From positions 1-64,000 of the forward strand of contig NZ_QRBZ01000026.1 of NCBI RefSeq assembly GCF_009833085.1: DNA of 64,000 bases, read 5' to 3'. The position numbers were made by a program, and so were the translations under genes. The notes under the pieces are model-generated. The model searched no databases. It was given only the letters and a program-made list of their open reading frames with translations, and was not told the origin of the DNA. Within the stretch, counting starts at the first letter, position 1. Each line of letters opens with the position of its first letter. Positions 43,172-60,766 of the stretch are shown here, in pieces. The DNA is from Nitrosomonas oligotropha (GTDB taxonomy: Bacteria > Pseudomonadota > Gammaproteobacteria > Burkholderiales > Nitrosomonadaceae).

Positions 43172-43831
43172 TCAATTGTTTTCAGCAGCCTTTTGAATCC
43201 GGGTAACCGTCAAATCTTCCAACCGATACTGATAACTCTCGACCAAATTTTCAGTCGTTACATTGGAAATACCCGTCAGCAACTCCAGCTCACCCAGCTT
43301 CTGAAAAAAACCTTTCTTCTGATACTTATTCAACAATTCCTGATTAATCTCAACCAGATTGGTATTATTCGCAGTGCATACATTGATCCATTGCTCGCGC
43401 TCCTGCACCGCAGCTACCAATAGCTGATTATCGTTTTGAATCTGACGGGCCTGGTCAATAATTTTCTGTTGTTTCTTTAATTGTTTCTGCGCTCGCTTCT
43501 GCGCTTTTTCCAAATCAGACTCCAGCTTACCTTTAAGACCCTGAAGGTTTTCCGTGCTGGCGCGATAACGATCAATCTCTTGTTGCAACGGCTGCAATCG
43601 TTTGACTTCCGCTTCCAGATTTTTAACCTGCTGCAACAGTTCGGATTTCTCCGCTTCCAGCGCCGCTTTCTCCTGACCTATCTGCCGCAACATGCCTTGC
43701 GCTTTTCTTAACGCTTGATCCCCGGCATTACTCTGCTTAGGCGCTTGCGCATGAATTACTGGCGCGTTCAATACTAGCAAGCAAAACAGCAAGGATGTTA
43801 AAACAGCTGATCCTGTTTCTTTTATTCTCAT
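43172..43831 (-). CDS. Exported coiled-coil protein, last gene of the TPS/TonB cluster
   Basis: 219 residues: a signal peptide (AVLTSLLFCLLVLNAPVIHA), then a long heptad-rich coiled coil (about 35-150; KAALEAEKSELLQQVKNLEAEVKRL, QKRAQKQLKKQQKIIDQ) and a C-terminal conserved-looking end (FFQKLGELELLTGISNVTTENLVE). No enzyme motif. It starts 17 bases after the porin stop. It probably forms a periplasmic or outer-membrane-linked rod that cooperates with the porin or with the surface filament; the exact role is unknown. Confidence 0.75.
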   Translation of the reverse strand: MRIKETGSAVLTSLLFCLLVLNAPVIHAQAPKQSNAGDQALRKAQGMLRQIGQEKAALEAEKSELLQQVKNLEAEVKRLQPLQQEIDRYRASTENLQGLKGKLESDLEKAQKRAQKQLKKQQKIIDQARQIQNDNQLLVAAVQEREQWINVCTANNTNLVEINQELLNKYQKKGFFQKLGELELLTGISNVTTENLVESYQYRLEDLTVTRIQKAAENN

Positions 43832-43848: not shown

Positions 43849-45714
43849 CTAAAAACGCACATTCAGATCCAGCAACAGCGAATCCACGTTGAGTGTCGGT
43901 CCATGAATAGCGGAAGCGCTCATCCAGCGGAGGTTAACCCAAGTGTTATTGGCAATGCCATAATTACCCCCGATCCACCAGCCTTGCGCATTGGTGCCGC
44001 CCAGATGAAATACCGAATCTGTAAAGGCATCCAGAACAGCGTCACGTTCGATATAGCGGTAAGCAAAGAATGCGTTCCAGTTCTTGAACTTCAGCGCATC
44101 ACGGTCACCCACGTCCATACGGAATTGATACGCGGTCGTTTTACTGCGATTATCGAGCAGGCGATTATTGAATTCGTTCTGGATACGATTGGCGTTATAG
44201 CCAAAGTTCTTTGTAAAATCAAAAGTAAACATCACATTAACTGGTGCAAAACCAGCATAATCGTATAACGCGGTAAAGTTGAAGATATCGAAACCGGATG
44301 CCAGTCCATACAAGCAACCTTGCCCCACGAAGCTTTGCATATTGGTACAACGGCTATTGATCGGCGTACCGTCAAGTTCATTCCCTTCATTCACGTTAAT
44401 TGGCACCATGGTATTGCCCCACTGCACAAATTGCGGCGCTGTCCAATCGTTGGTGAAGCTATTGCTCGCATTGGCGCGGGCGCGGATATTTTGGAAGTGA
44501 TAAAAACTGGCCGCCATTTTGAAGCGGGATTGATCTTGCACCAGCCAATCCACACCGACTTGTCCGCCGAAAAGCCATTTATCCCTTTCCGACAGATTGA
44601 CTTCCTGAATCGGGAAAACGCCCACGGTCGCATACAATGTATTCGGTGTTTGCGGCCCCATATTAATACCGAAGCGGCCGCCCAAATCCACCAGTGCAGG
44701 CGGTTTATAGTTTTTGATATTAGGTGCATCTTCGTTGAAACGTTGCCGGAAAGTGGCCGCGAATCCCTCGAAACTCAAATCGGAATCGTACATCACGTCG
44801 GTGGAGAAGAACGGATTGCGGAAACGGCCGCCGTACACACTGAACCGATCTTTGCCTTTTTCGTCGCGATAATCGTATTGCAAGAATCCTCGATCGATTG
44901 CAAGCTCGTAGCTCTGCCCGGTAACCCCCAAATTCTGATCATTAGAAACCGGGTTTCGCATATTACTGGTCGCCAAACGCACACCTGCTTTGAGGCTATC
45001 GGTAATATCCATTTCAAAACCGGCACGGAAACGCTGACTGAAAGCCAAACGATCTTGCTGTGTATTTAAAAATTCCGCATTGTTCTGAAACGCCGGGATA
45101 TGACCGCCTTCACGGTTAATCGCCAGATAATCGAGATAAGGGGAATTGCCGTTTCCGAAGAAATCATGAGAACCTCGCAAACGCATGTCGAAAGTAAATC
45201 TCGTTCTGTTAAGCCATTCCGGCAAAGCAGCGGGAACACCCCATGCCTCTTTCTTCGCATTGGCCTTCACTTCCTGAACAACTTCATCTTTAAGATCCGC
45301 GCGGACCTGCTGGCGTATCTCATCCTTGACGAATTCCGGCACATAACCCACGAAAACCGGCCCCTTTCCTTTTACTTTCTCGCCAGCCGGTTTATCCGGC
45401 GCCGTACTTTTTACAACTTTCGGCTCCGCCACCTGTTTTTCTTCGGCGCGTTCTTTCGCTATTTGATCTTTGGCTTCTTGCGCTGCTTTCTTTTTCGCCG
45501 CATTCACTAGCACCTTGGCTTTCTCTTTGTCCAATAACCCTTGCTCAACAAACAATTCGATCAAATTGGTGGTGGTATTCTTGAGTTCCAGAAGCTCCTC
45601 GCGCTCGTTAGCGATTTTTTCCTTGAGCTTGAGCAATTCGCTCTTCTCATCGGCCATGACCGGCACCGGTATCATGCTGGCCAGTAAAACGGCGATGATC
45701 GTTCTCGAAATCAT
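43849..45714 (-). CDS. Putative porin with N-terminal coiled coil
   Basis: About 621 residues. ATG 45714 gives a clean signal peptide ending VMADEK. The mature protein begins with a coiled coil (KSELLKLKEKIANEREELLELKN) and a Lys/Ala/Glu-rich stretch (about 60-150), then an outer-membrane beta-barrel from RTRFTFDMRLRGSHDFFG to a terminal LNVRF, with final Phe typical of barrel proteins. The coiled coil could reach through the periplasm. It lies between tonB and the coiled-coil gene in one operon-like run, so it may be the client or pore of this TonB system. Confidence 0.85.
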   Translation of the reverse strand: MISRTIIAVLLASMIPVPVMADEKSELLKLKEKIANEREELLELKNTTTNLIELFVEQGLLDKEKAKVLVNAAKKKAAQEAKDQIAKERAEEKQVAEPKVVKSTAPDKPAGEKVKGKGPVFVGYVPEFVKDEIRQQVRADLKDEVVQEVKANAKKEAWGVPAALPEWLNRTRFTFDMRLRGSHDFFGNGNSPYLDYLAINREGGHIPAFQNNAEFLNTQQDRLAFSQRFRAGFEMDITDSLKAGVRLATSNMRNPVSNDQNLGVTGQSYELAIDRGFLQYDYRDEKGKDRFSVYGGRFRNPFFSTDVMYDSDLSFEGFAATFRQRFNEDAPNIKNYKPPALVDLGGRFGINMGPQTPNTLYATVGVFPIQEVNLSERDKWLFGGQVGVDWLVQDQSRFKMAASFYHFQNIRARANASNSFTNDWTAPQFVQWGNTMVPINVNEGNELDGTPINSRCTNMQSFVGQGCLYGLASGFDIFNFTALYDYAGFAPVNVMFTFDFTKNFGYNANRIQNEFNNRLLDNRSKTTAYQFRMDVGDRDALKFKNWNAFFAYRYIERDAVLDAFTDSVFHLGGTNAQGWWIGGNYGIANNTWVNLRWMSASAIHGPTLNVDSLLLDLNVRF

Positions 45715-45781
45715 GATGTTTCTCTTGAAAAGAGAAGGTTTCAGGTTAGCGGTAAATAAAGTCATCATTTGCTTCGTCACG

Positions 45782-46456
45782 TTAAATCCTTGATATCAGT
45801 TTTATTTTTAGCGGTTGCGGCATATTTTGCGGTGGCGCTTTACCGATCGCGATGCGCAGCTTGGGCAATGCCGCCTGGATGCTCTGATCGACATCTTTCT
45901 TACCACTAGAGCCGATCAGTTCCGCGCGGCCAATACGTCCATCGGGATTGATCCAGATATTCAGCAACACGCTATATCTTTCTTTCCGTGCGCCGCTGTC
46001 AGCCAGCAGCGTTTGTAATTCTTCTTCTAAACTTTGCTTGACCTGGTTGCCGTACCACAAAATGGCATTTCCACCGCCTCCGCCCAGCAAACCGCGCCCG
46101 CCCTTTTTACCGAGCAAACCGAAGCTATCGCTCCCGGCAGCGCCTTCCGCGTCCAGTCCCAGCTCATCACCGGCAGGTGCGTCCGCATCAGAATCGTCCG
46201 GCGACGGTTCCGGCTCACTTTCAGGCTCAGGCTCCTCGATGGGTTGCGGCTCCGGTTCAGGAATCTTTTCCTCGGGTGGAGGCGGTGGCGGAGGTGGAGG
46301 CGGCTGGATAACCGTAATCTGCTGGACTGGTTTTTTAGTCTGCACCGGTTTATCGAACTGGCTTTGGATGTAATAAATGACCGCCACAATACTGACAGCC
46401 AGTATCACTCCGATAATGATGGGCAGGCGGCGTAGCCAGTGCTCGTTCTTTTTCAC
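45782..46456 (-). CDS. tonB: TonB-family energy transducer
   Basis: 224 residues: one N-terminal membrane helix (about 10-30), a Pro/Glu-rich periplasm-spanning linker with nine consecutive prolines, Gly-rich region, and a C-terminal TonB domain (VLLNIWINPDGRIGRAELIGSSG). Such proteins carry proton-motive energy from an ExbB/ExbD motor to outer-membrane proteins. It starts 12 bases after exbD. No TonB-dependent receptor accompanies it, so its outer-membrane partner must lie elsewhere or be the porin or TpsB of this cluster. Confidence 0.93.
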   Translation of the reverse strand: MKKNEHWLRRLPIIIGVILAVSIVAVIYYIQSQFDKPVQTKKPVQQITVIQPPPPPPPPPPEEKIPEPEPQPIEEPEPESEPEPSPDDSDADAPAGDELGLDAEGAAGSDSFGLLGKKGGRGLLGGGGGNAILWYGNQVKQSLEEELQTLLADSGARKERYSVLLNIWINPDGRIGRAELIGSSGKKDVDQSIQAALPKLRIAIGKAPPQNMPQPLKIKLISRI

Positions 46457-46468
46457 TTCGGACGAACC

Positions 46469-46873
46469 CTACTTCACCAGTTTCTGTGTAACCAAGCCCA
46501 GCTGGCTAATCTCAAGCCGCGACACCACATCGAGCACTTCAATGACCTTTTCGTATTGAATCGTGGCATCCGCCTTGAGTATCACCGGCAAATCCGGATT
46601 GGCCGCTTTGTATTGACCCAAGCGGGTTTCCAGGTCGGCAATTGATACCGGATAGGTATCCAAATAGATCGTGCCGTCCTGAGTAATCGAAATGGCCTTG
46701 GTTTTGGGTTTGCTTAATGACGGTGTGCTGCTGGCCTTCGGCAAGTTGACCGCGATCCCTTCCACTGACGCGGTGGTCATGATGATAAAAACGATCACCA
46801 ATACATAAGCCACGTCCAGCATTGGGGTAATGTTAATATCGTCATAAATTTTGTCGTCCTCTCCAACTTTCAT
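46469..46873 (-). CDS. exbD: ExbD/TolR-family proton-channel subunit
   Basis: 134 residues with the family arrangement: short cytoplasmic tail DDINITPMLDVAYVLVIVFIIMT containing the membrane helix and the proton-carrying aspartate, then a periplasmic domain ending FVTQKLVK-like (LGLVTQKLVK). ATG 46873 overlaps the stop of the ExbB-like gene by four bases (ATGA), so stoichiometric synthesis is likely. It completes the TonB motor with the fused ExbB upstream and tonB downstream. Confidence 0.94.
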   Translation of the reverse strand: MKVGEDDKIYDDINITPMLDVAYVLVIVFIIMTTASVEGIAVNLPKASSTPSLSKPKTKAISITQDGTIYLDTYPVSIADLETRLGQYKAANPDLPVILKADATIQYEKVIEVLDVVSRLEISQLGLVTQKLVK

Positions 46874-48693
46874 GACTCACTCCTTTTTTGTCTTTCGGCG
46901 ATACGTTCGGAAACCACGGCCAGAAACTCATCGGTGAATACATGCATATCAGCCGTGATATCTTTGATTTGCACCAGCAAATAGTTGTAGGCAAACAAGG
47001 TCGGAATGGCCACGGCAAGACCGGCAACGGTTGCGGCCAATGCCGCGGAAATACCGGGGGCGATTGAATTGATATTAACGTCGCCGGTTGCGGCGATCAC
47101 TGCAAAGGTAATCATCACACCCATGACCGTGCCCAGCAGCCCGAGGAATGGGCCGCCGGAAATCGAGATTGTCAGCAACACCATATTCTTGTTGAGTTTT
47201 TGATGTTCCCGGACAACTGCGGCATCCAGCCGGGCGCGAATCACGTTCAATGCTTCGGAACTCAGTGCGGTCTGGTTGCCATTGATCCGCTTGCGTAATT
47301 CTTGTACGCCGACATGATAAACACGATAGATCGGAGAACCCTGGAAGTGGTCGTGCTTGCCAAACATCGCCAGAAAATCGGAATCCTCGGCCGGTTGATC
47401 CGCTTCGTTGTCGTCTTGATCCAATGAATCCAAGTTGGAGACATTAATATTCCGGTATTGATGCAGAAACGCGGCGTTTTCCTTTCTCGCCTGGTTCAAA
47501 GTGACACCCTTGCCAATCATGACCATCAGACCGACGACCAGCATCACACCGCACAACGCGATCACGACCCAACCGTCGACCGTCAGGTTCTCCAGAATAA
47601 TCCGGCCATAACTGACACTGGCGCCGCCTTCCGCCGATTCGTCGGAACCGAAATTGATCACGGTAAAATCGGGGCTCTGGCTGCGGAATTGCAATTTAAT
47701 CCAATCCGGACTGCGCGCAATCTTGGCGATTTGCACTTCATCCAGCCAACCGGTCAGATGCGCCCCTGTTTCGGATGAGCCGATTAAAAGTGCCGGTGAA
47801 AATGGTTTCAATGCAATCGGCGCATTAGCCACCTGTACGCCATCGAGATAAAGCAGCAAATTGTTTTTCTCAACCACCAGCGCCAGATGCTGCCACTGTC
47901 CCGGCGTCAAGCTGATTGCACCAGTTTGGTTCGCGCTGCCGCTGCCGTTTTGATAACTGGCTTGTACAAATGCGCCCTGTAACTTGATTTCCAGCTGCGC
48001 AGTAGCGTCCTTGGCCTGCAGAATCGTGGCATTCTGCTCCTGCTCGGTTCTAATCCAGGTGCTGAATGTCCAGCCATTTTCCGGATCGATCTCCAGCGCC
48101 GGCTGCGCGCCTGTTTTAATTCCGCCTTGCCCTTCAAAGCGCGCAGCAGCGGCGATATATCCATTCGGATCGATAATGGCTTTGGAATCGTTTGCGTGCA
48201 GTAAATAAGCCGTCGCATCCTGAGGCAGCGCTTCGCCTTCCTTGAAATGGTAGGTCAGCACTTGATTGACATCGTAAATGCCTTGGGGATCGGAACCGTT
48301 TGCCGCATTGGCATTGCCGTAATACATAGTGAAATTGTCACTACTGATACCGCCACGAACCACGGGTAATTTGACCCAGACCAATCCAAGCTCTACCAAT
48401 GAATCGATCTTCTCCACATCATGCTTCAGCGCGGTTTTATCCTGCTGCATAAAGCGCAGATCTTTACCGTTTTCCGCCAGATCGAGAAAAAAACCAAAAT
48501 TACCGCTGTGCAGGCGCACCAGTACCGGAAAATCCTGCACGGTACCCTGTATATCAGCCCCGGTGATGCTCGCATCAACCGTCAATTGTTTGCGTGAAGG
48601 CCATGCATCGTTCCACCAGGCACGACCCTCCACAGACACTAATGTCAGTATCAACAGCAATATAAAACGATGCATAAACAAAAATTTCTTCAT
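46870..48693 (-). CDS. DUF2341-LamG-ExbB fusion (MotA/TolQ/ExbB proton channel)
   Basis: 607 residues. A signal peptide (RFILLLILTLVSVEGRA) leads an extracytoplasmic part: DUF2341 (about 25-130, WWNDAWPSRKQLTV, MYYGNANA) and a LamG-like jelly roll (about 175-345, GWTFSTWIRTE, WQHLALVVEKNNLLLYLDG). A membrane helix (about 370-395) and then the ExbB channel (ISGGPFLGLLGTVMGVM and AATVAGLAVAIPTLFAYN) follow. Free-standing ExbB is about 240 residues, so half of this one is sensor- or ligand-like. It may bind a carbohydrate or the TpsA filament. Confidence 0.9.
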   Translation of the reverse strand: MKKFLFMHRFILLLILTLVSVEGRAWWNDAWPSRKQLTVDASITGADIQGTVQDFPVLVRLHSGNFGFFLDLAENGKDLRFMQQDKTALKHDVEKIDSLVELGLVWVKLPVVRGGISSDNFTMYYGNANAANGSDPQGIYDVNQVLTYHFKEGEALPQDATAYLLHANDSKAIIDPNGYIAAAARFEGQGGIKTGAQPALEIDPENGWTFSTWIRTEQEQNATILQAKDATAQLEIKLQGAFVQASYQNGSGSANQTGAISLTPGQWQHLALVVEKNNLLLYLDGVQVANAPIALKPFSPALLIGSSETGAHLTGWLDEVQIAKIARSPDWIKLQFRSQSPDFTVINFGSDESAEGGASVSYGRIILENLTVDGWVVIALCGVMLVVGLMVMIGKGVTLNQARKENAAFLHQYRNINVSNLDSLDQDDNEADQPAEDSDFLAMFGKHDHFQGSPIYRVYHVGVQELRKRINGNQTALSSEALNVIRARLDAAVVREHQKLNKNMVLLTISISGGPFLGLLGTVMGVMITFAVIAATGDVNINSIAPGISAALAATVAGLAVAIPTLFAYNYLLVQIKDITADMHVFTDEFLAVVSERIAERQKRSES

Positions 48694-48732: not shown

Positions 48733-51700
48733 TTAATCACCGCAACCTTTCTTTCCTTCCTTGATGTCTTTCACACTGCAATCGCCATAACTCACCACAT
48801 CAGTGCTCAACATGCTGACTCCCTTCTGTTTATTCTTGTCATCCTGATCGCGCCCGGAGCCTCCACGCGACGCGGATTGCGATGCCGATTGCGCCGCGCT
48901 GGCAGCAGCGCCATCCGCCCCGGCCACGCCGGTCGGCGCGACAACACTGGTTGGCACACCCACCGTGCCGCCCGAAGCTTGAATATTGGAAGCGCCAATC
49001 ACCGCCGTTGCTGCGATCACAATTTGACTGCCGCTGATACCCGCTTCACCGGCATCCACCACCCCCACCGGTGCGGCCAGTACCACATTTCCCTTACCGA
49101 CCGCTTGTATGCCGCTGCCGGACACGATCGGCGGGAAAATGGTGACGATGTTGCCGCGTTCGTCTACCACGCTGACTGGCGGCGGTGCGGAGATCGCTGA
49201 TTTAGCGCCTTTACCGGCATCGATACTGCCTTCGGACGACCACACGAGAATGTCTCCACCGAGTAAGGTAAAGACGCGAGACTGATTGACATTGAAATTG
49301 TCATTGACTACAGCACTGAGATTACCCTTCTGCTGCACGACCAGACCCAGTTGTTCCGGGGTTTTACGAATCCCCGCCAATTGTCCGGCCAGACCGACAT
49401 CGACATTACCCCCAGGCACCGCCAGATTGATGTCGCCACCGTCCAGCGTTTTAATCTGACTGAATACCAAGCCGAGATTTCCGCTATAGGATTCATCCGG
49501 GAAAAGCGTTTTGATCGCTTCAAAGCCGCGTTCGTAAAGATCCTTGCGTTTTGATTCGGGCGCAGCCGCCGCAGCCGATGCGGATTCTTTGATTTCATTG
49601 TAAAAAACATTCAACAACGTACCCAGATGCTGTCGTTGTTCGGCTTCCGGCAAATCGGCAAGCCCTTGCAGGATTTTTCGGTATTTGTCGGTATTCTCAT
49701 AACGCTTGATAAAACCGGTCAAATCCATTTTCCCGGCTAAACCGGTCAGAATCGTAATCGCCGCGCCGCCTTCGTCGCTCAACGTGCGGTTGAATAAATT
49801 ACCGATGGTTTGAATGCCGTTAGAGCTGCCGAGATTGATGCTTTCCCCAGCCAGCACTTGCAATTGACCTGGCCCGCCAAGCTCCAGCTTTCTGATATTG
49901 GAAAGAATATTTCCATCGTTATTGATGATCGTGTCGTACAGGATATTTCGTCCCGCCTGTACGCGAGTAATATCATCAGCCGCCAGATTCTGGCCTTTTA
50001 GGGTCAGATTCTTGATGTCCCGGCCAGCAACAAACTCGGCAGCTTTGGGTAAATAAAAGGTCGCTTCCTTATCGGTGGCGAATGCGATGTCACCCAGATG
50101 CGCAATGACCGCAGGTTTGCTGGCGTTGCCCAAATGCACCGGGACCGGCGCATTGATAAGGAGCGGATCCGGCGTGGTCAGATTAAGACGTTCGCGCGCG
50201 CGGATAATACCGCTGACCAAATTACCTTCGACTTGCTGCGCGGGTGACGCGATACCTGGCAGCAATGAAATATCCGTATTGGACATGCCGATATTAAAGA
50301 ACTGCGCGGCGCTTCTATCTGCGGATATATTTCTCTGCGCCAGCAACTCAAATTGACCTTGGGATGACGGAAACAATGTCATCGAATTATTGACACGAAT
50401 GTCGCCGGAGTACGCAACCGTTTTCAAAGTGCCGGGATACACGCTGAAACCGAATCCCGGTTCGGCGCTGTTATTCAGGACTACGCTGCCGCCGGTTGTC
50501 GAAAGTGCAATTGCACTGCGATCACTGTAAGTAAAGAAGCGCGAATCGGTACCGCCGGAACCGGCCGGTAAAGAATCCTGGCCGCGTATCGTGGGATTAT
50601 CCACCGATGCCACAACCAGGTCATTGCGCGCACTGACATTGACCTGCGCATCGCCCAGATGAAGTGCGGTGCCTGCTTCCGCCGATGCGGAATAACTGCC
50701 ACCCGCGGTTATATTGGCTTGTCCCTTGCCGACATAATATTCACCACCGGCGATGTTATTGCCCGCCGTAACCGACAATGCGCCACCGCCATTAATCACC
50801 GTACCGTTAGCGCTCCAAGTGGTGGAAAAACCGGAAATGGCGTTAATCGTCCCGAGCGGCTTACCCGTGGTAGGCAGCATTGCGGATAAATTGCGGATAT
50901 CGCCACCGGCTTCAATCGTAACTTCACCGCCGCCAAGCGCCCCGACATTCTGGTTAAATGTTCTAACGCCGCGGCTATTGAAAGTATCGCCGCTGATATT
51001 GATACCCCAGGCAGTGGGCCTGTGATTCACATCCCAAACACCGCTGCGCACCAGCCAGTCACTGATTTTTTGGCCGGTAGCAATGCCTTGTATGTCACCC
51101 CCGGCATGGATCGAGATATCGCCGCCTTGCGTCGGGTAATCCGCCACAACAAACTGCGTGCCCAGCAAAACCTCATTGGCAAAACCATACCGCAACACGC
51201 TGTTTAACCACGCCGGATCGAGCCGGTTCAAATAATTGGCGTCAGACTCGCCGGAAAAACGCGCAGGAGCGCCAGGGATACTGCCCGCTAATAACTGACC
51301 GCGCGTGTACTGTGCGGGGGTACCCATGGTATACATCGCTGCCGCGGCTTTTGCATCGTCGGGATTACTCAAGTAGCGCACATCATTTCCCGCTTCCACA
51401 TCGATACTGCCGGTACCTGTCCGGACAACCACCTGGGCCGGGCTTGATCGAGTATCGGTTGCTGCCAGATTGATATCGCCGCCTGCATATAGACCATAAC
51501 TCCAGGATAAGCCTGGCTGTATCATGTCAGGGAAACGGTTTTCCGGTTTCTGGCCTACGATGGGGGTTCTCGCGAAGGCGTCGGTTAATGAAGCATTGAT
51601 ATTGAGATTGTTATTGGCTCTCAGAGTGAGAAAGCCCGGCAATGTTTTTTGTCCGTCCGAAGCCGAATAGCGCCAGTTGGAATCCCAGCTCAGCGTTTTT

Positions 51701-54700
51701 TCATTCCACGCACCTTCCATGAAATCCCAGCGATCTTGCAGCGTCAAATCACCTTTGCTTTGTATTTCTATGCCCGGCAAAAATTGCAGAGCCGTTCCGG
51801 AAAGATTCGCCAGCGACGGCCTGTTCGCCATGAATGCAGCGGTGTCGGCTTTCCACGCTTGAATGGCATCACTCGTAATCACCGATTGACCGGAATAAAC
51901 CCGGGCCGCTTCGAGCACAGCGTGATTCGGATCAGCGCCGGTAATGCGCGTATTGATCGCTGTAACGTTAACGGCATGATTCGTATCCCTGCCGGTGCGT
52001 AAATGGACATCCCCGCCAGCGCCGCCACTACCGCCGGAAACATCGATCGTTGCGCCGGAAGCGGATAAATCCAGCAAGCCGCTGCCAGTATCCTGCCGGT
52101 GCACGGTATCCAAGGTCACGCTGCCGCCTTGTGCGCCATTCGCACTTGCTTTAGCCGCAATTACGCCGGTGGAGCCCAACGCGATGCCATTAGCGCCATA
52201 GATATTGACTGAACCGGCAGCATCGCCCCCGGCATCGATCCGGCCTGCAATAGTGACTTTCCCTTGATCGGCAGTCAGATTGAATTGATCGGCTTTGATC
52301 GTATCAGCCGCAGCGATTGCGATATCGCCATGACGCTGGCGCAGGCTCAATTCCTGATTAAATCCCGCTTCCGCTAATTTGGCATTCAACGCCGACAAAC
52401 CATCCGCGCCAAAATTATCCGCATCCAAGCGGATGCTTCCGCCTCGGGTGTTTGCAGAAGCCGATGCATCAATGTCGCCATGCCAATTGAACTGACCTTT
52501 GGGAACTTGAACGTGCAACGTACCGGCCTTGCTGGCATGCTCAATCTGATTGGCTGCGCTACCCGCCGCACCGGCAAGACGGATGTTCGCATCGCTTTCA
52601 AAATTAATATTCCCGGCATCGGCCGACAATACAACGCGCCCCGCTGGCGCATATCGAGTCAGTTCTGCGAATGGCACGGCACGGCCCGAAACATCGATCT
52701 GCGCACCGTTATTCAGATTGATATCACCGGCCAGCGCATGTAACTCAAGAATACCCCCCGGCAGATCAAAGAAACCATTACCGGCAATTGCATTGGCTGT
52801 TAGCGACCATGCCGATCCCAGCCCTGCCGATCTTCCCGGCACAGTGCTGCCCAGCCGGTTAAAGTTGATTTGGTGACCACTGGCATCAATACGCGTAGTG
52901 GAACCGGAATTACCGGCAAAATAAGCGGCATTCAAATTCAGGTCTCCGGCTACGCTTAACGAACCTGGCTTGGCCAAAGTGCTATTGCCGGTTTGCGCAT
53001 CCTGCATTAACCCCAATCCGGTAATCGCATTGGACACATTGAAGGTGGCGTTACCGAAACCGGAAATGGCATAGTCGCCTTCCGCCAGCAGAATATTTTT
53101 CGCATTCAGCGTTAACGCGCCTGTGCCCGTGCCGGTCCGAGCGGAATTGAAGCCCGGATTTCTGAAAGTAACGCTATCCGCATTGATCTGCGCACCGAGA
53201 CCCGCATTATTGAAGCCATTGATTCGCGCCGCATTGATATCAAGCTGCTTCGATTGCAAAACGACATCGCCGTACAAATCGAAATCGGATGTACTGATCA
53301 ACTTCAGCTCAGTGAGATTCAAGGGAATATTCTTCAGCACCAGCCCTTCGGTGCCAAGCGGCGCGGCGCCCGCGCTGATGCGACTGGATTTCAACGCCAG
53401 CGAACCACCATTCATATCGATAAGACCGTCGAATACCGTATTTCTGGTGGAATCGAGCGCCATTGAAGCATCCGCTTTCAGCCGCGCGCCTTCTTCAATG
53501 GTCAAAACACCGGTACTGCCGGTAACACTGCGGTCACGGTTCAACCCTACTTGATTGAAGGAAGAAACCCGCAACAATGCACCATCGCTATTGGTTGCCC
53601 CGCTGTTCTCGATAAACAGATCCGCTGCCGTGCCGCTGCCATCTTTTTTGCTTTCGATCAGCGCACCGGAAGAAACTCTCACTTCATCACGCGCCGCGAG
53701 AATAACTTCCTGGCCCTGCAAATGACTATTTCCATCGATATTCAGGTTTTGTGCGGTTACCGTTACCCGCTGCCCTCTCGTATCTTTTCCACGCACCCCG
53801 CCGAGCAGCAGGCTGGGTGCATTTAAGCGATTCAGATCGTCAGCCAGCAATTTGACTGTGCCGGGAACCGGCGCGAGCAAATCCTCCTGGCGGCCTACAA
53901 TGGCTAAGCGGTCGGCACTGATATCCACTTGCCCGCCCCTGCCGTTTTTGGCTGGAGACGCCGCCAGATCGGCTGCCAGCGTCAGATGCTCACGTGTGGT
54001 GATTGCCAGACTGCCCGCATCCTCGGGCAACTGTGGACGGGCGATGCCCTTTTGCTCTGCTGCTTTGGCAAAAAACTGATTGGCAGAATAATTGGTGTAC
54101 TCGGAGAAGACTCTCGCCTGTGTTCCCGGCGCCACCGAGAAACCTTGCGTGCGGGGATTTTGAATATCGGCGGCGGCTGTGCCATAGTGCCCGGAAACGA
54201 TCGTTGCACCGGTAAAATCAGTAAAGCGCTGGCTCGGTGTAATGTCCGGAATGTCCGGTCTTGGTGTGACCAGATACGCGCCGGGCAACAAGGCGTAGTG
54301 TGCGGGCAGTAAGGCATACCAGCCTTCTTTCAAGGCGGAACCGGCGCTCAGATACACGCTATCGCCAACATGCAAATTCGCTGATGAAAACTCCAGCGGA
54401 TCGATCGGCGTCAGAGCCGGATTGAAACCTGGCAGCACTGCGAATTTAGGAACATAACCGGCAACACGCGAATCCAGAATATCGCGTGATCCGCCCGGAC
54501 CCGGAATGAATTCGTAGGCATACAAATCGCCACCGCCCGACAAATCAAGCTTGGCGCCTTGCTGTAACTCAATGTTGGTGCCCGTCAGCACCAGCCGTTT
54601 TTCCGGCGGCGACGAAATCAGCCGGTTAATTGCGCCATCGGCTGTCATCGGGTACAACCAATTAATACCCGCCGCACCGCGGCCGAACGGTACGGTTAAG

Positions 54701-57700
54701 CTGTTGCCCGATACCGAAGTATAACTGCCGGGCGCCAATTCCAAATAATTGCCGGCATTCAGATTGATACTACCGAATGGAACCTTGATGGTGCCTTGCT
54801 GCTTAATGTTCGGCGCGTTGATCGTCAGACTGCCGCCTGCGGAGAGCACAGGTGCTTGTGCACCGGCGCCTTGCTGAATGGTCAGTGTTTCCTGGCCTGT
54901 ACCGCCGAGCGCAAAGGTATAGTCGGTCAATGTCGCGGTATACAATTGCGAGGCGGTTATCGCCAAATCGCCCGCAAATTTGAATGTGCCGAGAAAGTTT
55001 TTCGTGTCCGGTCTTATCTGAATGCCCACGGCACGCACATCGCCTTCGCTGAACAATTCAGCCTGGCCAAAACCGTTAAAACTCAGGCCGCCAACCAAAT
55101 CAATCCCTTTCGCCGCCACCGAAAACCGCCCTGCACCGCCTGCTGCATTCGGCGCCAGCCGGGAATCGAATAAGCCTTGCGATAATTGCGTATCGATACG
55201 GCTTTGCGTGGATCCCAGCGCTGCATAGGTCGTGTTCAGACTGACCTGGCTACCGGAAGTCTCGATACTCGGCGTATCCAGAATGATTTCCTTATGTGCT
55301 GCCAGCTGCATATCGCCATTAAAACGAATGCTTCCGCGATATTGCCCATCGCCGCCAAGCACATCGGTTTTAAGCTGTAATGCGTTGAATCCCGAGTGGC
55401 TTAATTGATCATTGTTGAAAAAAGCCAAGCCATTGTAGCGTTCCGTATTGATATTACCGCCCAGCGATAAATCGCCCGGTATCACAGAGTCTGACGCGGC
55501 TGAAATGACAATGCTGCGCGGTCTATTGGTAAGCGCGGTCACATCGTCCGGGAAAAAGCCGCCGCCCACGGGAAATTCGGGTTTATCGCGCAGCCCTTTG
55601 TTGATTTCGGCGGACAGTGTGCCGCCGCCGGAAGCCGTGCCGCCATCCGCCTTGAAGGTACCGTCGATTAGCATTCCTTCGCCCGCTTTCAAAGTGACTT
55701 GACCGCCAAACGAAGGAATATCGCGCGAGACCGGCACAAATGCATTGCCGCTTTGATCCGGTTCACGAAAATCAACGCGCTCGCGCGTACCGCTCACATC
55801 GATTAAAGAGCCGGCATAACTGACGATGTAGCCCCTGTTGGCGATGAGATCGATATGCCCGCCCGGCAAAACATCGCCCATGTGCAAGCCATAAGGATTC
55901 AACTGTTCTTTGAAAACACCCCGTGCATTCAGACTGCTGTTTGCACCCAGCCAGATGCCTTGCGCGTTATAAAAACCGGTGTCGCCACGCGCTGGCGGAT
56001 CGATGGTTGCGCTGATTGTTCCGGCGGGTGCATCGATGCTGCCTTCGATCAGGATAGAAGTTGCCGAATTCATCTCAACCCGGCCGCCGATATCGGTTTT
56101 AATCGATGCGCCTGCGCCAATTTTCAATTGCTCCTGGCGATTCTGCGCGATCGACGGCGCGACTGAAAGATGCAGATTGGTGGGCTGGCGGATGGCTTCC
56201 GGTAATGTCACGATCGAACTGAATGCCGTCAAATCAGCGCCGGTAGGCTGGGTAGCAGCATTGGTCGACAAATAAAAATTCTGCTGAACGGGACGGACGC
56301 TGACATTATCGGCCACTTTCAGTCCGTAAAGATTCGCGCTCAAACTAAAATCGGAGAAACCGCCTTGCTGGAAAAATTCCGGCGCCAGCACCAAAGGCTG
56401 GACAGCCGAAGCGGAACGCGCGGGCACATCCGCGGCGCTGCCAATAACCACTTCATTGGAAGCCAAATGCAGCTTACCGCCTTGATTGAGCGCGAAGGCC
56501 GATAACTCGCCATCGAGTATCAAGCTGGATGATTTACCGCCGGGCTCGACAGTGGCCGCTTCAAGATGAATCGATCCGCCGCGTCCCGCCCGGGTGCCGC
56601 CAATGATTTGCAACCAAGCGCCGCCATTGGCATTGATCAGGCTGCCATCATTTAACCGCAAATCCCCCTGTTCGCTGATCAGCGTGACCGAGCCGCCATC
56701 AACCGATACCGAAGCCAATGGCAAGCCCGAACGGATGTTTTGCTGATCATTCACCCAACGCCCGCTGACATCGATTTGTGAATGCGCGCCCAAGGTTATG
56801 GGGTTCGGCAGCAACTGATCGCTATTGACGACCACCGGCTTGAAAGTGATTTCTCCGGACGGTGCTGTCAGCGATCCTTGAATTTCGCTACCGCTCGCCG
56901 CTACCGTCAACTTGCCGCCTATCGGCAACTCAAGTTGCACATCCGGGCCGATGGTAACCGAACCGTTGGTCGTGACACTGACGTTCCGCACTCCGGATTT
57001 TTTCAGATTTTCCGCATCGATATTCAGTGCGATGGGTTCTTTTTTATTAGCCTCGCGCGGTATTGGCGCATTCGGTTTCAGTGCCGGTACCGGCGGATCC
57101 ATGTTCTGGCTGAATACGACGTTTTGTTTACCGAACAGGTTGTTCTGGCTTAAATCGATCGACAGATTGCTGCCATCGGCGCGCTGAGCTTGTTGTCTTT
57201 GCAAGGAACCATCGACAGTCGTGCCATCCAGAACACCATTGAGCATCGCTTCATAGGTATTAATCGCCAGATTACCGCCTGCTTTACCTTCGATATAGCC
57301 GTGCTCAAAGTGCTTGAGCGCCATGCCGGAAATCGTCCAGCTTTCGGTAATGCCCCATTTCGGATGAAATTTAGTGAATTGATTCAGGATGGCGTCATAA
57401 GGACGGTTGGGATCGGCGTGTGCAATATCGGAAACAAAGCCGCCGGAAACTACTTTAGTGGTTTCGATATAGCCATCGCGATAGGCAACCGTACCACCGG
57501 AGAAATCTATCTTGCTGCCTGCTTGCGTAATGACATCGCCGCTGGAAGTCAAATTGATGGAACCGCCCGCTGTGCTGCGCTCATCGATATTCCGTTCAAT
57601 ACGATCAACCGCACCCTTGATATCGGCGATCGGAATGGTGGCGCTGGTCAGTACGCCGGTATTCGGGTCATAAACCAGCGTTGCATCGCGCAAATCAACC

Positions 57701-59121
57701 GATACTTTCTCGGCAAATAAAACGCCATTGCGTTGAAAAGGGGCATCGCGCAATTCGTTCTTGCGCAACTCGACTTGCACCACATTACGTTCCATCGGTA
57801 ACACGACGTTCTTGACCCCGGATGCATCGATTATGCTGCCGGTTTCAAGATAGATGCGGGCGCTTCCTTTAATGGACGCATCGGCCAGATTATCCAATGC
57901 CTTGACATCGATAATCCCGGACTTTGCTTCGAGCACGGAGCGTTCTTTCAAATGAACTTCGTGTGCGCTGATTTCAATTCTGGAGGATTCCTGCGGCTGC
58001 GCATCGATGGCCTTCGCCGTCTTATCGGCATCCAGGTCAACGCTGGTGCGGCTGCCTTCGGCCAGCGTCACGGTAGCGCTTTTGCCTAAACCATCATCCT
58101 TTTCAGTTCTGCGTGTTGTAACACTGCCTGTTAATTTACCGCCCGTGCCGCTCGGATCCTGAATGCCTTCACGCGCCAGCAGCCGGACTGATCCGTCCAA
58201 TTGCACCGACGTAGTCGCCGACGCAATGCCTTCCTGATTCACGGCAAAGCCGATCAAACTGGCATTGCCGCGCTCCGCCAGAATCTTACCGATATTGTTG
58301 ACTTCACCGCCGGTTCCGACTTCGACCAAAAGCCCGCGAATATCGGATTTGGTGCCGGCCTCCTGCAAATACACTTTATCTTGCGCCCCGGCGAGAATGG
58401 TCTGTCCGCCCGGTGTTTGAATCGTACCGGCATTGGTGACCACAGGCGCCGCCAGTATCACACGGCCGCTATCACCGCTGGTTTTAATCTGCGCGCCGGG
58501 TTCGACAAAAATCTGAATCTTTATTTTTTCGCCATTCGGATCCAGGATGAACTGCCCCAGCTCGTTCTTCAGATAAATTTCATTTTTGCCTTGCAAGGCT
58601 GCGGCATTATTGATATCGAAAACCTTGGTGATACCACGCTGGAATGTTTCTTCGCTGATACCCAAGGTAGTGGCTACCAAGGCATTCACATTGACTTGCG
58701 AATCCTTACCGAAAAGAAAGCCGTTTTGATTGACCAGATAGACTTGGCCATTGGCCGTCAAGGAACCGAGAATACGGCTGGGATCGGCCTGGTGAATATT
58801 GTTTAATGAAATAGCCGTTGCGGAAGGCTGATCAAATCTGACACTGTTATGTTCACCGATATTGAAGCTCTGCCACTCCAGCGTCGCCCGGTCCGAGATC
58901 TGTTTAATAATCATGTTGTCACCGGAAATACTGGCGGCAGCTTGCCCATGCGATGCGAGTGCGGCAGAATCAACCGGCACCGGCAATTCGGCGCGGACAT
59001 CGTAACTGTTGCTTATCAAGGTGATGCTACCGGCCAATAGAGTGCGTATCGCCAAAAACAATGGTTTTAGCTGGAAACTATCATTCGCGTATGTTGATTG
59101 TTTGTTCTTGTTCTTGTTCAT
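48733..59121 (-). CDS. Giant filamentous-haemagglutinin-like exoprotein (TpsA)
   Basis: About 3462 residues. A long N-terminal export signal (to about residue 45, ending YDVRAE) precedes a TPS secretion domain (roughly 45-300) with VYLVNQNGFLFGKDSQVNVNALVATT. The rest is parallel beta-helix repeat material, with a C-terminal FHA-family region ending in VSMLSTDVVSYGDCSVKDIKEGKKGCGD-type sequence. By eye the only two cysteines are those near the end (12 residues apart), suggesting a disulphide-tethered anchor as in HMW1-type proteins. GAGG lies six bases before ATG 59121; the in-frame TTG at 59127 is less likely. It follows its transporter by 34 bases. Confidence 0.93.
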   Translation of the reverse strand: MNKNKNKQSTYANDSFQLKPLFLAIRTLLAGSITLISNSYDVRAELPVPVDSAALASHGQAAASISGDNMIIKQISDRATLEWQSFNIGEHNSVRFDQPSATAISLNNIHQADPSRILGSLTANGQVYLVNQNGFLFGKDSQVNVNALVATTLGISEETFQRGITKVFDINNAAALQGKNEIYLKNELGQFILDPNGEKIKIQIFVEPGAQIKTSGDSGRVILAAPVVTNAGTIQTPGGQTILAGAQDKVYLQEAGTKSDIRGLLVEVGTGGEVNNIGKILAERGNASLIGFAVNQEGIASATTSVQLDGSVRLLAREGIQDPSGTGGKLTGSVTTRRTEKDDGLGKSATVTLAEGSRTSVDLDADKTAKAIDAQPQESSRIEISAHEVHLKERSVLEAKSGIIDVKALDNLADASIKGSARIYLETGSIIDASGVKNVVLPMERNVVQVELRKNELRDAPFQRNGVLFAEKVSVDLRDATLVYDPNTGVLTSATIPIADIKGAVDRIERNIDERSTAGGSINLTSSGDVITQAGSKIDFSGGTVAYRDGYIETTKVVSGGFVSDIAHADPNRPYDAILNQFTKFHPKWGITESWTISGMALKHFEHGYIEGKAGGNLAINTYEAMLNGVLDGTTVDGSLQRQQAQRADGSNLSIDLSQNNLFGKQNVVFSQNMDPPVPALKPNAPIPREANKKEPIALNIDAENLKKSGVRNVSVTTNGSVTIGPDVQLELPIGGKLTVAASGSEIQGSLTAPSGEITFKPVVVNSDQLLPNPITLGAHSQIDVSGRWVNDQQNIRSGLPLASVSVDGGSVTLISEQGDLRLNDGSLINANGGAWLQIIGGTRAGRGGSIHLEAATVEPGGKSSSLILDGELSAFALNQGGKLHLASNEVVIGSAADVPARSASAVQPLVLAPEFFQQGGFSDFSLSANLYGLKVADNVSVRPVQQNFYLSTNAATQPTGADLTAFSSIVTLPEAIRQPTNLHLSVAPSIAQNRQEQLKIGAGASIKTDIGGRVEMNSATSILIEGSIDAPAGTISATIDPPARGDTGFYNAQGIWLGANSSLNARGVFKEQLNPYGLHMGDVLPGGHIDLIANRGYIVSYAGSLIDVSGTRERVDFREPDQSGNAFVPVSRDIPSFGGQVTLKAGEGMLIDGTFKADGGTASGGGTLSAEINKGLRDKPEFPVGGGFFPDDVTALTNRPRSIVISAASDSVIPGDLSLGGNINTERYNGLAFFNNDQLSHSGFNALQLKTDVLGGDGQYRGSIRFNGDMQLAAHKEIILDTPSIETSGSQVSLNTTYAALGSTQSRIDTQLSQGLFDSRLAPNAAGGAGRFSVAAKGIDLVGGLSFNGFGQAELFSEGDVRAVGIQIRPDTKNFLGTFKFAGDLAITASQLYTATLTDYTFALGGTGQETLTIQQGAGAQAPVLSAGGSLTINAPNIKQQGTIKVPFGSINLNAGNYLELAPGSYTSVSGNSLTVPFGRGAAGINWLYPMTADGAINRLISSPPEKRLVLTGTNIELQQGAKLDLSGGGDLYAYEFIPGPGGSRDILDSRVAGYVPKFAVLPGFNPALTPIDPLEFSSANLHVGDSVYLSAGSALKEGWYALLPAHYALLPGAYLVTPRPDIPDITPSQRFTDFTGATIVSGHYGTAAADIQNPRTQGFSVAPGTQARVFSEYTNYSANQFFAKAAEQKGIARPQLPEDAGSLAITTREHLTLAADLAASPAKNGRGGQVDISADRLAIVGRQEDLLAPVPGTVKLLADDLNRLNAPSLLLGGVRGKDTRGQRVTVTAQNLNIDGNSHLQGQEVILAARDEVRVSSGALIESKKDGSGTAADLFIENSGATNSDGALLRVSSFNQVGLNRDRSVTGSTGVLTIEEGARLKADASMALDSTRNTVFDGLIDMNGGSLALKSSRISAGAAPLGTEGLVLKNIPLNLTELKLISTSDFDLYGDVVLQSKQLDINAARINGFNNAGLGAQINADSVTFRNPGFNSARTGTGTGALTLNAKNILLAEGDYAISGFGNATFNVSNAITGLGLMQDAQTGNSTLAKPGSLSVAGDLNLNAAYFAGNSGSTTRIDASGHQINFNRLGSTVPGRSAGLGSAWSLTANAIAGNGFFDLPGGILELHALAGDINLNNGAQIDVSGRAVPFAELTRYAPAGRVVLSADAGNINFESDANIRLAGAAGSAANQIEHASKAGTLHVQVPKGQFNWHGDIDASASANTRGGSIRLDADNFGADGLSALNAKLAEAGFNQELSLRQRHGDIAIAAADTIKADQFNLTADQGKVTIAGRIDAGGDAAGSVNIYGANGIALGSTGVIAAKASANGAQGGSVTLDTVHRQDTGSGLLDLSASGATIDVSGGSGGAGGDVHLRTGRDTNHAVNVTAINTRITGADPNHAVLEAARVYSGQSVITSDAIQAWKADTAAFMANRPSLANLSGTALQFLPGIEIQSKGDLTLQDRWDFMEGAWNEKTLSWDSNWRYSASDGQKTLPGFLTLRANNNLNINASLTDAFARTPIVGQKPENRFPDMIQPGLSWSYGLYAGGDINLAATDTRSSPAQVVVRTGTGSIDVEAGNDVRYLSNPDDAKAAAAMYTMGTPAQYTRGQLLAGSIPGAPARFSGESDANYLNRLDPAWLNSVLRYGFANEVLLGTQFVVADYPTQGGDISIHAGGDIQGIATGQKISDWLVRSGVWDVNHRPTAWGINISGDTFNSRGVRTFNQNVGALGGGEVTIEAGGDIRNLSAMLPTTGKPLGTINAISGFSTTWSANGTVINGGGALSVTAGNNIAGGEYYVGKGQANITAGGSYSASAEAGTALHLGDAQVNVSARNDLVVASVDNPTIRGQDSLPAGSGGTDSRFFTYSDRSAIALSTTGGSVVLNNSAEPGFGFSVYPGTLKTVAYSGDIRVNNSMTLFPSSQGQFELLAQRNISADRSAAQFFNIGMSNTDISLLPGIASPAQQVEGNLVSGIIRARERLNLTTPDPLLINAPVPVHLGNASKPAVIAHLGDIAFATDKEATFYLPKAAEFVAGRDIKNLTLKGQNLAADDITRVQAGRNILYDTIINNDGNILSNIRKLELGGPGQLQVLAGESINLGSSNGIQTIGNLFNRTLSDEGGAAITILTGLAGKMDLTGFIKRYENTDKYRKILQGLADLPEAEQRQHLGTLLNVFYNEIKESASAAAAAPESKRKDLYERGFEAIKTLFPDESYSGNLGLVFSQIKTLDGGDINLAVPGGNVDVGLAGQLAGIRKTPEQLGLVVQQKGNLSAVVNDNFNVNQSRVFTLLGGDILVWSSEGSIDAGKGAKSAISAPPPVSVVDERGNIVTIFPPIVSGSGIQAVGKGNVVLAAPVGVVDAGEAGISGSQIVIAATAVIGASNIQASGGTVGVPTSVVAPTGVAGADGAAASAAQSASQSASRGGSGRDQDDKNKQKGVSMLSTDVVSYGDCSVKDIKEGKKGCGD

Positions 59122-59155
59122 ACTCAACCTCTATTTGATAGGCGCTCAGAAAAAT

Positions 59156-60766
59156 CTAAAACTCGTAATTCAACCGGAAGTCAAAGCGCTGATCGCCCAC
59201 ATCGACTTTTCCTTGCCGGTACAGCGGGTAAGCCCAGTCAAACTCGCCACTTAAGAATTTGTGCAATTGCATTCTGAAGCCTGCACCAGCGCCTGCCAGT
59301 TTGTAGAAATCAGGATTCCGGGGGAGCGGCTCTTTAATCCATAAAGCCGCATAATCGAAAAATATGTGCGGACGGAAACTGCGAATGATTTCCCAGTTGG
59401 TCGGTTGAAGCATCGGGCTCTGCAATTCAATCGAAAAATTAACGCCGTGATCGCCCAATTGCTGCGTCATGTGGTAACCGCGCACGCTCTGATGACCTCC
59501 GACAGAGAATTGCTCATTACTGATGAGCGGTGTATTCGTGACTTGGCCTCTTGTCCGTACGGCCACTCTGAAGTCGCCCGGCAGCTCTTGCAAATGCCTG
59601 GCCCCTAAAGTCAGATAAGCATAATTGGCTTGCGCCTTGAAGCGCCGGTCTTCAAATTCCTGCGTTTCATTTCCCAAGCCGCGTACCGCAAAATTGACAG
59701 CAGCATTAATAGATGTCACAGCTTTGTTGTAACGCCAATTTCCGTCATAGCCCAATTGAAATGCCGTGTACGAAATGGGAGTGGAATTCTCGTCTTGCCC
59801 CTGAACGGTAATGGCTTGGTTAAAATTTTTGTAGTCAAAACCGAGAACCAGATTATGGTTGTATGTTTCCCGGGTAGCCAAAGGCTTGGTCAAACGCGCG
59901 CCATAGATCGTACCGGCGCCGACAACGGTCAATCCGCCGATGGGTGTTCCCAATTTGGTATTCGAGTCAATGCCGATACCATACATCGCCAGGCGGGTAT
60001 CGGAAAAACCGGTCGGCATCACATAAGTGCCCGACCACACCTGAATCTCGCTGGGATTTTCCGGTGTTACTTGATATTGAAAAGATGCGCTATGGAAACG
60101 CTGCCATAAGTTGTCATACCTTAGTGTGCCAACCAGGCGCGGACGCGTTGTTCCTTCCGGATTATTGCCGTGAATTTCCAAACTGCCGTGCAGTGGAAAT
60201 GTGTCGGCAACCCGCAATTCAACTTCGGTTTTACCGGGTGTGGAACCCGCCCGGAATATCGGCGTGACTTGACGGTCACCCGATTGCTTGCCCAATGCGG
60301 CCACTTGTTCTTGAACATCCGGCATATGCGGCACTTGTCCCGCAGCCAATGCGGGCACTTGTTCACGGATTTTCCCCAAAGAAAAATAGCGCGACCCGGT
60401 AATCTTCAGACGTTCGATAGTGCCTTCCATGACTTGCAACCGAACCTGCCCTTCCACCACATCCTGCTCGGGGATTTCAACCAGCACGGTAGGATAGCCT
60501 TGCTCTTTATAAACCGCTTCCAGGGCTTGGCGGGCGCTTTCAACATCGTCGATGGATTTGTCGTAACCCAGAAATGGATATACCGTTTTCTCGATTAATT
60601 GTTGTTCCAGGATGGTATTTCCATCTACTTGCAGCACCAGCAAATCGAATTTTGGCTGTGTTTGCCCGGCATGCACCTGTTCCGATGATTTTTGATCTCC
60701 CCACGCAGGCATGGATAGACAAGACGCAAGCAGTGAAATTAATAGAGGCAGTATCATCTGGAACAT
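59156..60766 (-). CDS. TpsB outer-membrane transporter (ShlB/FhaC/HecB family)
   Basis: 536 residues: signal peptide (SLLASCLSMPAWG), two POTRA domains (about 38-115 and 116-200), and a 16-strand-type barrel. The loop-6 motif VRGY is present in SVGGHQSVRGY, and the barrel ends LNYEF with terminal Phe. It secretes TpsA across the outer membrane through its POTRA domains and pore. The tpsA gene begins 34 bases downstream. No clear Shine-Dalgarno sequence precedes ATG 60766; ATG 60757 is an alternative. Confidence 0.94.
   Translation of the reverse strand: MFQMILPLLISLLASCLSMPAWGDQKSSEQVHAGQTQPKFDLLVLQVDGNTILEQQLIEKTVYPFLGYDKSIDDVESARQALEAVYKEQGYPTVLVEIPEQDVVEGQVRLQVMEGTIERLKITGSRYFSLGKIREQVPALAAGQVPHMPDVQEQVAALGKQSGDRQVTPIFRAGSTPGKTEVELRVADTFPLHGSLEIHGNNPEGTTRPRLVGTLRYDNLWQRFHSASFQYQVTPENPSEIQVWSGTYVMPTGFSDTRLAMYGIGIDSNTKLGTPIGGLTVVGAGTIYGARLTKPLATRETYNHNLVLGFDYKNFNQAITVQGQDENSTPISYTAFQLGYDGNWRYNKAVTSINAAVNFAVRGLGNETQEFEDRRFKAQANYAYLTLGARHLQELPGDFRVAVRTRGQVTNTPLISNEQFSVGGHQSVRGYHMTQQLGDHGVNFSIELQSPMLQPTNWEIIRSFRPHIFFDYAALWIKEPLPRNPDFYKLAGAGAGFRMQLHKFLSGEFDWAYPLYRQGKVDVGDQRFDFRLNYEF

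Follow-up and report, generated by a model that had tools for sequence, protein, structure and literature searches.

A DUF2341-LamG-ExbB fusion protein of Nitrosomonas oligotropha and a putative Ton motor associated with two-partner secretion

The window considered here is a stretch of 64,000 nucleotides of Nitrosomonas oligotropha DNA, and all of the features described in it lie on the minus strand. An open reading frame running from an ATG at 48693 to 46870 encodes a 607-residue ExbB-type protein with N-terminal DUF2341 and LamG domains (46870-48693), and the three Pfam families concerned, PF10102, PF13385 and PF01618, all score above their curated cut-offs. Residues 1-25 (48619-48693) are predicted from hydropathy to be a signal peptide that is cleaved before WWND, and the WW directly after the signal peptide is common to 26 of 26 full-length relatives. 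A DUF2341 beta-sandwich region follows at residues 26-142 (48268-48618; Pfam match at residues 75-140, E 3e-11), and then a LamG/concanavalin-like jelly-roll at residues 143-340 (47674-48267; Laminin_G_3 at residues 190-333, E 7e-20). The three-helix channel (46945-47589) begins with TM1 at about residue 369, and TM2 and TM3 make up the MotA_ExbB core (residues 477-583, E 6e-27, 94.3 bits against a curated cut-off of 22.9). Besides the signal peptide, hydrophobic segments are found at about residues 369-400, 504-541 and 543-574, and none was detected by hydropathy within residues 26-360; hydropathy predicts the same arrangement, an exported N-terminus followed by three TM helices, for the window protein and its relatives. 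The sequence-only reading had proposed an ExbB in which a signal peptide, DUF2341 and a jelly-roll precede the channel, and Pfam and hydropathy agree with it. The extension is large, as was claimed, and the figure of about 350 residues is corrected to about 340 mature residues.

The N-terminus of ExbB homologues is periplasmic. Together with the Sec signal and TM1, this topology places residues 26-365 in the periplasm, and the DUF2341-LamG extension is thus predicted to be a periplasmic domain tethered to TM1. The earlier term extracytoplasmic is right in that the domain is exported, and can be narrowed to a predicted periplasmic site. The fusion is a single open reading frame in more than 50 loci, therefore it is neither a chance join nor an assembly artefact, and wherever sequence covers the N-terminal region of an ExbB locus, the fusion is present. 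The predicted topology and the constancy of the fusion are in keeping with an N-terminal domain that is neither cytoplasmic nor a separate protein.

AlphaFold2 modelling of the full-length protein with 18 sequences gave a mean pLDDT of 62.5, with a good LamG part and a poor DUF2341 and channel, so that structural reading is limited to a model of residues 26-345 alone (pLDDT 81, pTM 0.79). In this model a DUF2341 beta-sandwich, with a pLDDT of about 75 over most of its length, is joined to a LamG jelly-roll. The best match of the LamG part in a fold search is domain 4 of AbnA (Z 23, rmsd 2.3 over 188 residues, 20% identity). Functional kinship to AbnA domain 4 or to the clostridial neurotoxin binding domains, which together fill the top of the fold-search lists, was considered and rejected, as only the LamG/concanavalin jelly-roll is shared, at 11-20% identity. 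Because hits to the LamG part take up these lists, DUF2341 itself could not be matched to a solved fold. Mean pairwise identity among relatives is 49% for DUF2341, 35% for LamG and 73% for TM2-TM3, and the invariant core of DUF2341 includes R60-L61-H62, N65-F66, F69, D78, W106 and Y124. The better conservation of DUF2341 makes this domain a likelier functional contact than LamG.

These results bear on what the extension does. In the earlier suggestion, the LamG/DUF2341 part is a glycan- or filament-binding domain through which an external or periplasmic cue gates the proton channel. The solved structure of AbnA domain 4 contains a bound arabino-oligosaccharide and the extension is tethered straight to TM1, both of which would suit such a role; however, LamG is a generic fold and is among the less conserved parts of the protein. 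An external cue is unlikely, because DUF2341-LamG is predicted to sit in the periplasm, a location that would rule out direct contact with such a cue. Ligand or filament binding with channel gating is not supported by the present results, and we consider it quite unlikely. Another explanation is that the extension is a mere structural spacer or lineage ornament and that the ExbB core does everything. According to a 2025 mBio survey (PMC12505986), non-flagellar homologues often carry large appendages, which may have been acquired repeatedly, but a spacer would hardly be expected to retain the invariant core of DUF2341 or to occur in every complete locus, and this explanation appears the most improbable of those considered here. 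The survey reports large appendages on ExbB homologues, and the remark that ExbB proteins are usually little more than three helices therefore understates their diversity.

The channel core resembles those of known systems. Against PDB chains, it matches TolQ (1.6e-15) and ExbB (8e-12). Like E. coli ExbB-ExbD-TonB and TolQ-TolR-TolA, the window system has the channel core, ExbD and TonB partners and the TM threonines, T522 in TM2 and T555 in TM3 being invariant in 54 of 54 fused proteins. It differs from E. coli ExbB-ExbD-TonB in the 340-residue extension and in having A, G or S in place of the TM3 glutamate, E176 of E. coli ExbB. Glutamate is absent from this position in the 54 fused proteins (A in 35, G in 17 and S in 2). 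This loss was rejected as a unique trait, since several paralogues in the same genome, including a MotA-like one, also have no glutamate there; it is thus a channel variant and does not disqualify the protein from the superfamily. The protein scores below the equivalog cut-offs of both TIGR02796 (TolQ; 117.7 against 221) and TIGR02797 (ExbB; 58.5 against 206.2), hence the name ExbB-type and not canonical ExbB or TolQ. At the level of sequence, membership of the MotA/TolQ/ExbB superfamily is confirmed by the domain, the helices and the paired B subunit, and proton conduction is predicted.

The genes on either side of exbB fall into two groups. Downstream, exbD (46469-46873; PF02472, E 4e-29) overlaps the exbB stop by 4 bases, and its product has ITPMLDV at the TM start, with the membrane aspartate of the B subunit (ExbD/TolR). 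It is followed by a TonB-like energy transducer (45782-46456) with one TM helix by hydropathy, a Pro-rich stretch and TonB_2 (PF13103, E 1e-7), by a Porin_5 outer-membrane protein (43849-45780; PF16930, E 4e-177) with an N-terminal helical extension, whose true start is possibly further in, and by a secreted coiled-coil protein (43172-43831) with a hydrophobic N-terminus, in the gene position of PA0697 and with homologues at the same position elsewhere. Upstream are a 3464-residue TpsA (48733-59127) with a TPS secretion domain (PF05860) and a C-terminal DUF3739 (PF12545), and a TpsB transporter (59156-60766) with POTRA_2 (PF08479) and a ShlB barrel (PF03865). These neighbours agree with the earlier observation that the extended ExbB adjoins TpsA and TpsB genes. 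With the TPS domain in TpsA and POTRA and barrel in TpsB, the locus is by its domain content a two-partner secretion (type Vb) locus. Short gaps separate the successive genes from tpsB onwards, and exbB and exbD overlap, therefore one transcript is likely. Beyond tpsB lies a gene for a 565-residue protein (60976-62673) that appears to have a signal peptide and for which Pfam, NCBIfam and PDB searches gave no match; homologues of it occur near the module in four other loci (L014, L038, L086 and L090). No TonB-dependent receptor gene was found within the locus, and no sigma factor or FecR genes were seen adjoining it.

A similar locus exists in Pseudomonas aeruginosa. PA0690-PA0697 comprises tpsA/pdtA, tpsB/pdtB, exbB2, exbD2, tonB4, PA0696 and PA0697, and this PUMA3/pdt locus is under the control of the sigma factor VreI and PhoB, with pdtB, exbB2D2, tonB4, PA0696 and PA0697 co-regulated; PA0696 has been described as a putative outer-membrane porin, and as of a 2020 description exbB2-exbD2-tonB4 was an uncharacterised putative TonB system (PMC2729926, PMC4971064, PMC7035377). 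Compared by gene order, the window shares the gene types and the order pdtB-exbB2-exbD2-tonB4-PA0696-PA0697, and differs in that its tpsA sits between tpsB and exbB. The window thus fits a pdt/PUMA3-type order of exbB-exbD-tonB-porin-coiled coil beside TPS genes. In view of the phosphate control seen in P. aeruginosa, a Pho box was sought upstream of the window operon, and the matches were no better than chance. A Klebsiella quasipneumoniae plasmid locus (L040) has the PUMA3/pdt order plus sigma factor, FecR-like, YbjN, PPIase and LysR genes; DUF2341 and LamG are present on its ExbB and DUF3739 on its TpsA, and the porin belongs to Porin_5. FHA-type systems (FhaB/FhaC) share the TPS domain and a ShlB-type transporter with POTRA, whereas the window adds the Ton motor, Porin_5 and the coiled-coil protein, and its TpsA ends in DUF3739.

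The DUF2341-ExbB architecture itself is already known. NCBI gene names already cover DUF2341-ExbB-type fusions, and the 2025 mBio survey names DUF2341, with function unknown, and DUF3450 among the large N-terminal appendages of MotA/ExbB homologues (PMC12505986). The window protein is like the GIT-clade homologues of that survey in having an N-terminal appendage on an ExbB-type channel; its passages on these appendages give no gene context, and the LamG part and the linkage to TPS are added here (PMC12505986). A literature search of open-licence papers found none tying DUF2341-ExbB to two-partner secretion.

The conserved module consists of TpsB, TpsA with DUF3739, ExbB, ExbD, TonB, Porin_5 and the coiled-coil protein. 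A scan of genome contigs gave 22 loci, including one in a Nitrosomonas MAG at 98%, methanotroph loci (Methylovulum, Methylobacter) mostly at 63-67% and two gammaproteobacterial MAGs, one of Oleiphilus, at 40-41%. The downstream genes are the same in nearly all of them, and TpsA is present where the contig extends that far. The module ExbB is also found in plasmid records from Burkholderia, Cupriavidus, Variovorax, Aquabacterium, Methylosinus and Klebsiella; no viral contigs matched the DUF2341-LamG profile. In a hand count of 61 fused ExbB loci, a few of them near-identical, drawn from the stretches around matches and from further stretches of the window's own family, ExbD and TonB lie beside the fused ExbB in 60, the remaining one being at a contig end. 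Porin_5 is present at 54 of the 61. Among the seven others, L018 and L091 are at contig ends, L034, L083, L096 and L097 have none in the stretch covered, and in L072 about 27 kb of the contig separates the fused ExbB from the porin, TpsA and the coiled coil. The Methylomagnum ishizawai plasmid locus L034 (11602-15341) is an ExbB-ExbD-TonB-coiled coil set with no porin or TPS genes nearby; alkaline phosphatase genes lie within a few kb of it. A tandem exbD pair is seen in the module at L038 (17685-18501) and L123 (7178-8128). L126 (genome G415) is a decayed locus that keeps a DUF3739 remnant.

The same association is seen when genomes are counted. DUF2341 occurs in 30 of the 369 genomes of the class and the fused ExbB in 22, all 22 of which have a full-length Porin_5 and 21 of which have DUF3739. 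Full-length Porin_5 is found in 24 of the 369 genomes and strong DUF3739 in 23, the reverse exceptions being G200, which is 64% complete, and G101, in which a contig end truncates exbB immediately ahead of the porin. The Fisher p for co-occurrence is about 1e-30, a figure that is inflated by shared ancestry. A near-obligate association of the fused ExbB with a DUF3739 TpsA, Porin_5 and the coiled-coil protein is strongly implied.

The module porins have a feature of their own. An alignment of 45 of them has a YVPxxVKxxIR motif in the N-terminal extension (45313-45345 in the window), with Y in 96% of the rows, P in 93%, V in 89%, I in 89% and R in 91%; the helical stretch upstream of it is poorly conserved. 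The motif is apparently confined to module porins. Most other Porin_5 matches cover part of the profile, from about position 100-155 onwards, and so lack the N-terminal extension. We hypothesise that TonB, or else a different periplasmic partner, makes contact at the motif.

How might these parts work together? We give roughly even chances to a dedicated Ton motor, driven by the proton motive force, that belongs to the TPS module and serves an outer-membrane partner of it, most likely the porin. ExbB would be the channel subunit of the ExbB-ExbD-TonB motor, and proton flow through the ExbB pentamer would drive TonB. TonB in turn may act on Porin_5 through the conserved N-terminal segment, TpsB or TpsA being less likely targets. 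With its five DUF2341-LamG units, each motor would have a collar in the periplasm at which a partner specific to the module docks; the cell-wall glycan, the coiled-coil protein and the porin extension are candidates, and the motor could be placed or restrained in this way. The overall role may be assembly, release or energised passage tied to the giant TpsA. Every step beyond the export and assembly of the motor is one that we infer. The model is supported by the domains and predicted topology, by the constancy of the fusion, by the linkage to ExbD, TonB and Porin_5 in loci and genomes, by the co-regulation in P. aeruginosa and by L126, where the broken exbB coincides with no match for exbD, tonB or the porin. 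Several points count against it. YVPxxVKxxIR is no classical TonB box, the literature describes type V secretion as independent of an energy source (PMC5422565), and insertions in P. aeruginosa tpsA, tpsB, the tonB homologue or PA0696 left virulence in zebrafish embryos unaltered. In L083, L096, L097 and L034, ExbB-ExbD-TonB occurs with no porin close by, and the partner may thus not be the porin in all loci.

Alternatively, the motor may power two-partner secretion itself, with TonB pulling or opening TpsB or acting on a periplasmic part of TpsA (DUF3739), and the giant TpsA would be exported or released at the cost of proton motive force. The constant linkage to a DUF3739 TpsA is consistent with this, as is the frequent position of exbB immediately after tpsB or tpsA. 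However, TPS has been reconstituted without energy input (PMC5422565), which argues against it, the equally strict porin linkage would be left unexplained and certain ExbB-ExbD-TonB copies lack TPS genes in the stretch covered; we regard it as unlikely. A further reading, in which proton-motive-force-powered TPS or TpsA release has the Ton motor, the ExbB docking collar and the dedicated porin acting at the outer-membrane stage, is possible but doubtful.

In a tree of ExbB sequences, the window copy clusters with Methylococcaceae (100/98) and apart from another genus of Nitrosomonadaceae. The loci tied to this Nitrosomonas/Methylococcaceae grouping are the window gene (46870-48693), L010-L030, L124 and L125. 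The grouping suggests, from the gene tree, horizontal transfer of exbB between methanotrophs and Nitrosomonas, in either direction.

Two-partner secretion is held to need no energy source. With a Ton motor and a porin joined to one class of TPS, the claim that such secretion is energy-free becomes directly testable. The module also links the DUF2341-LamG appendage, whose function is unknown, to one defined system, and it supplies a likely context for the uncharacterised TonB system of P. aeruginosa.
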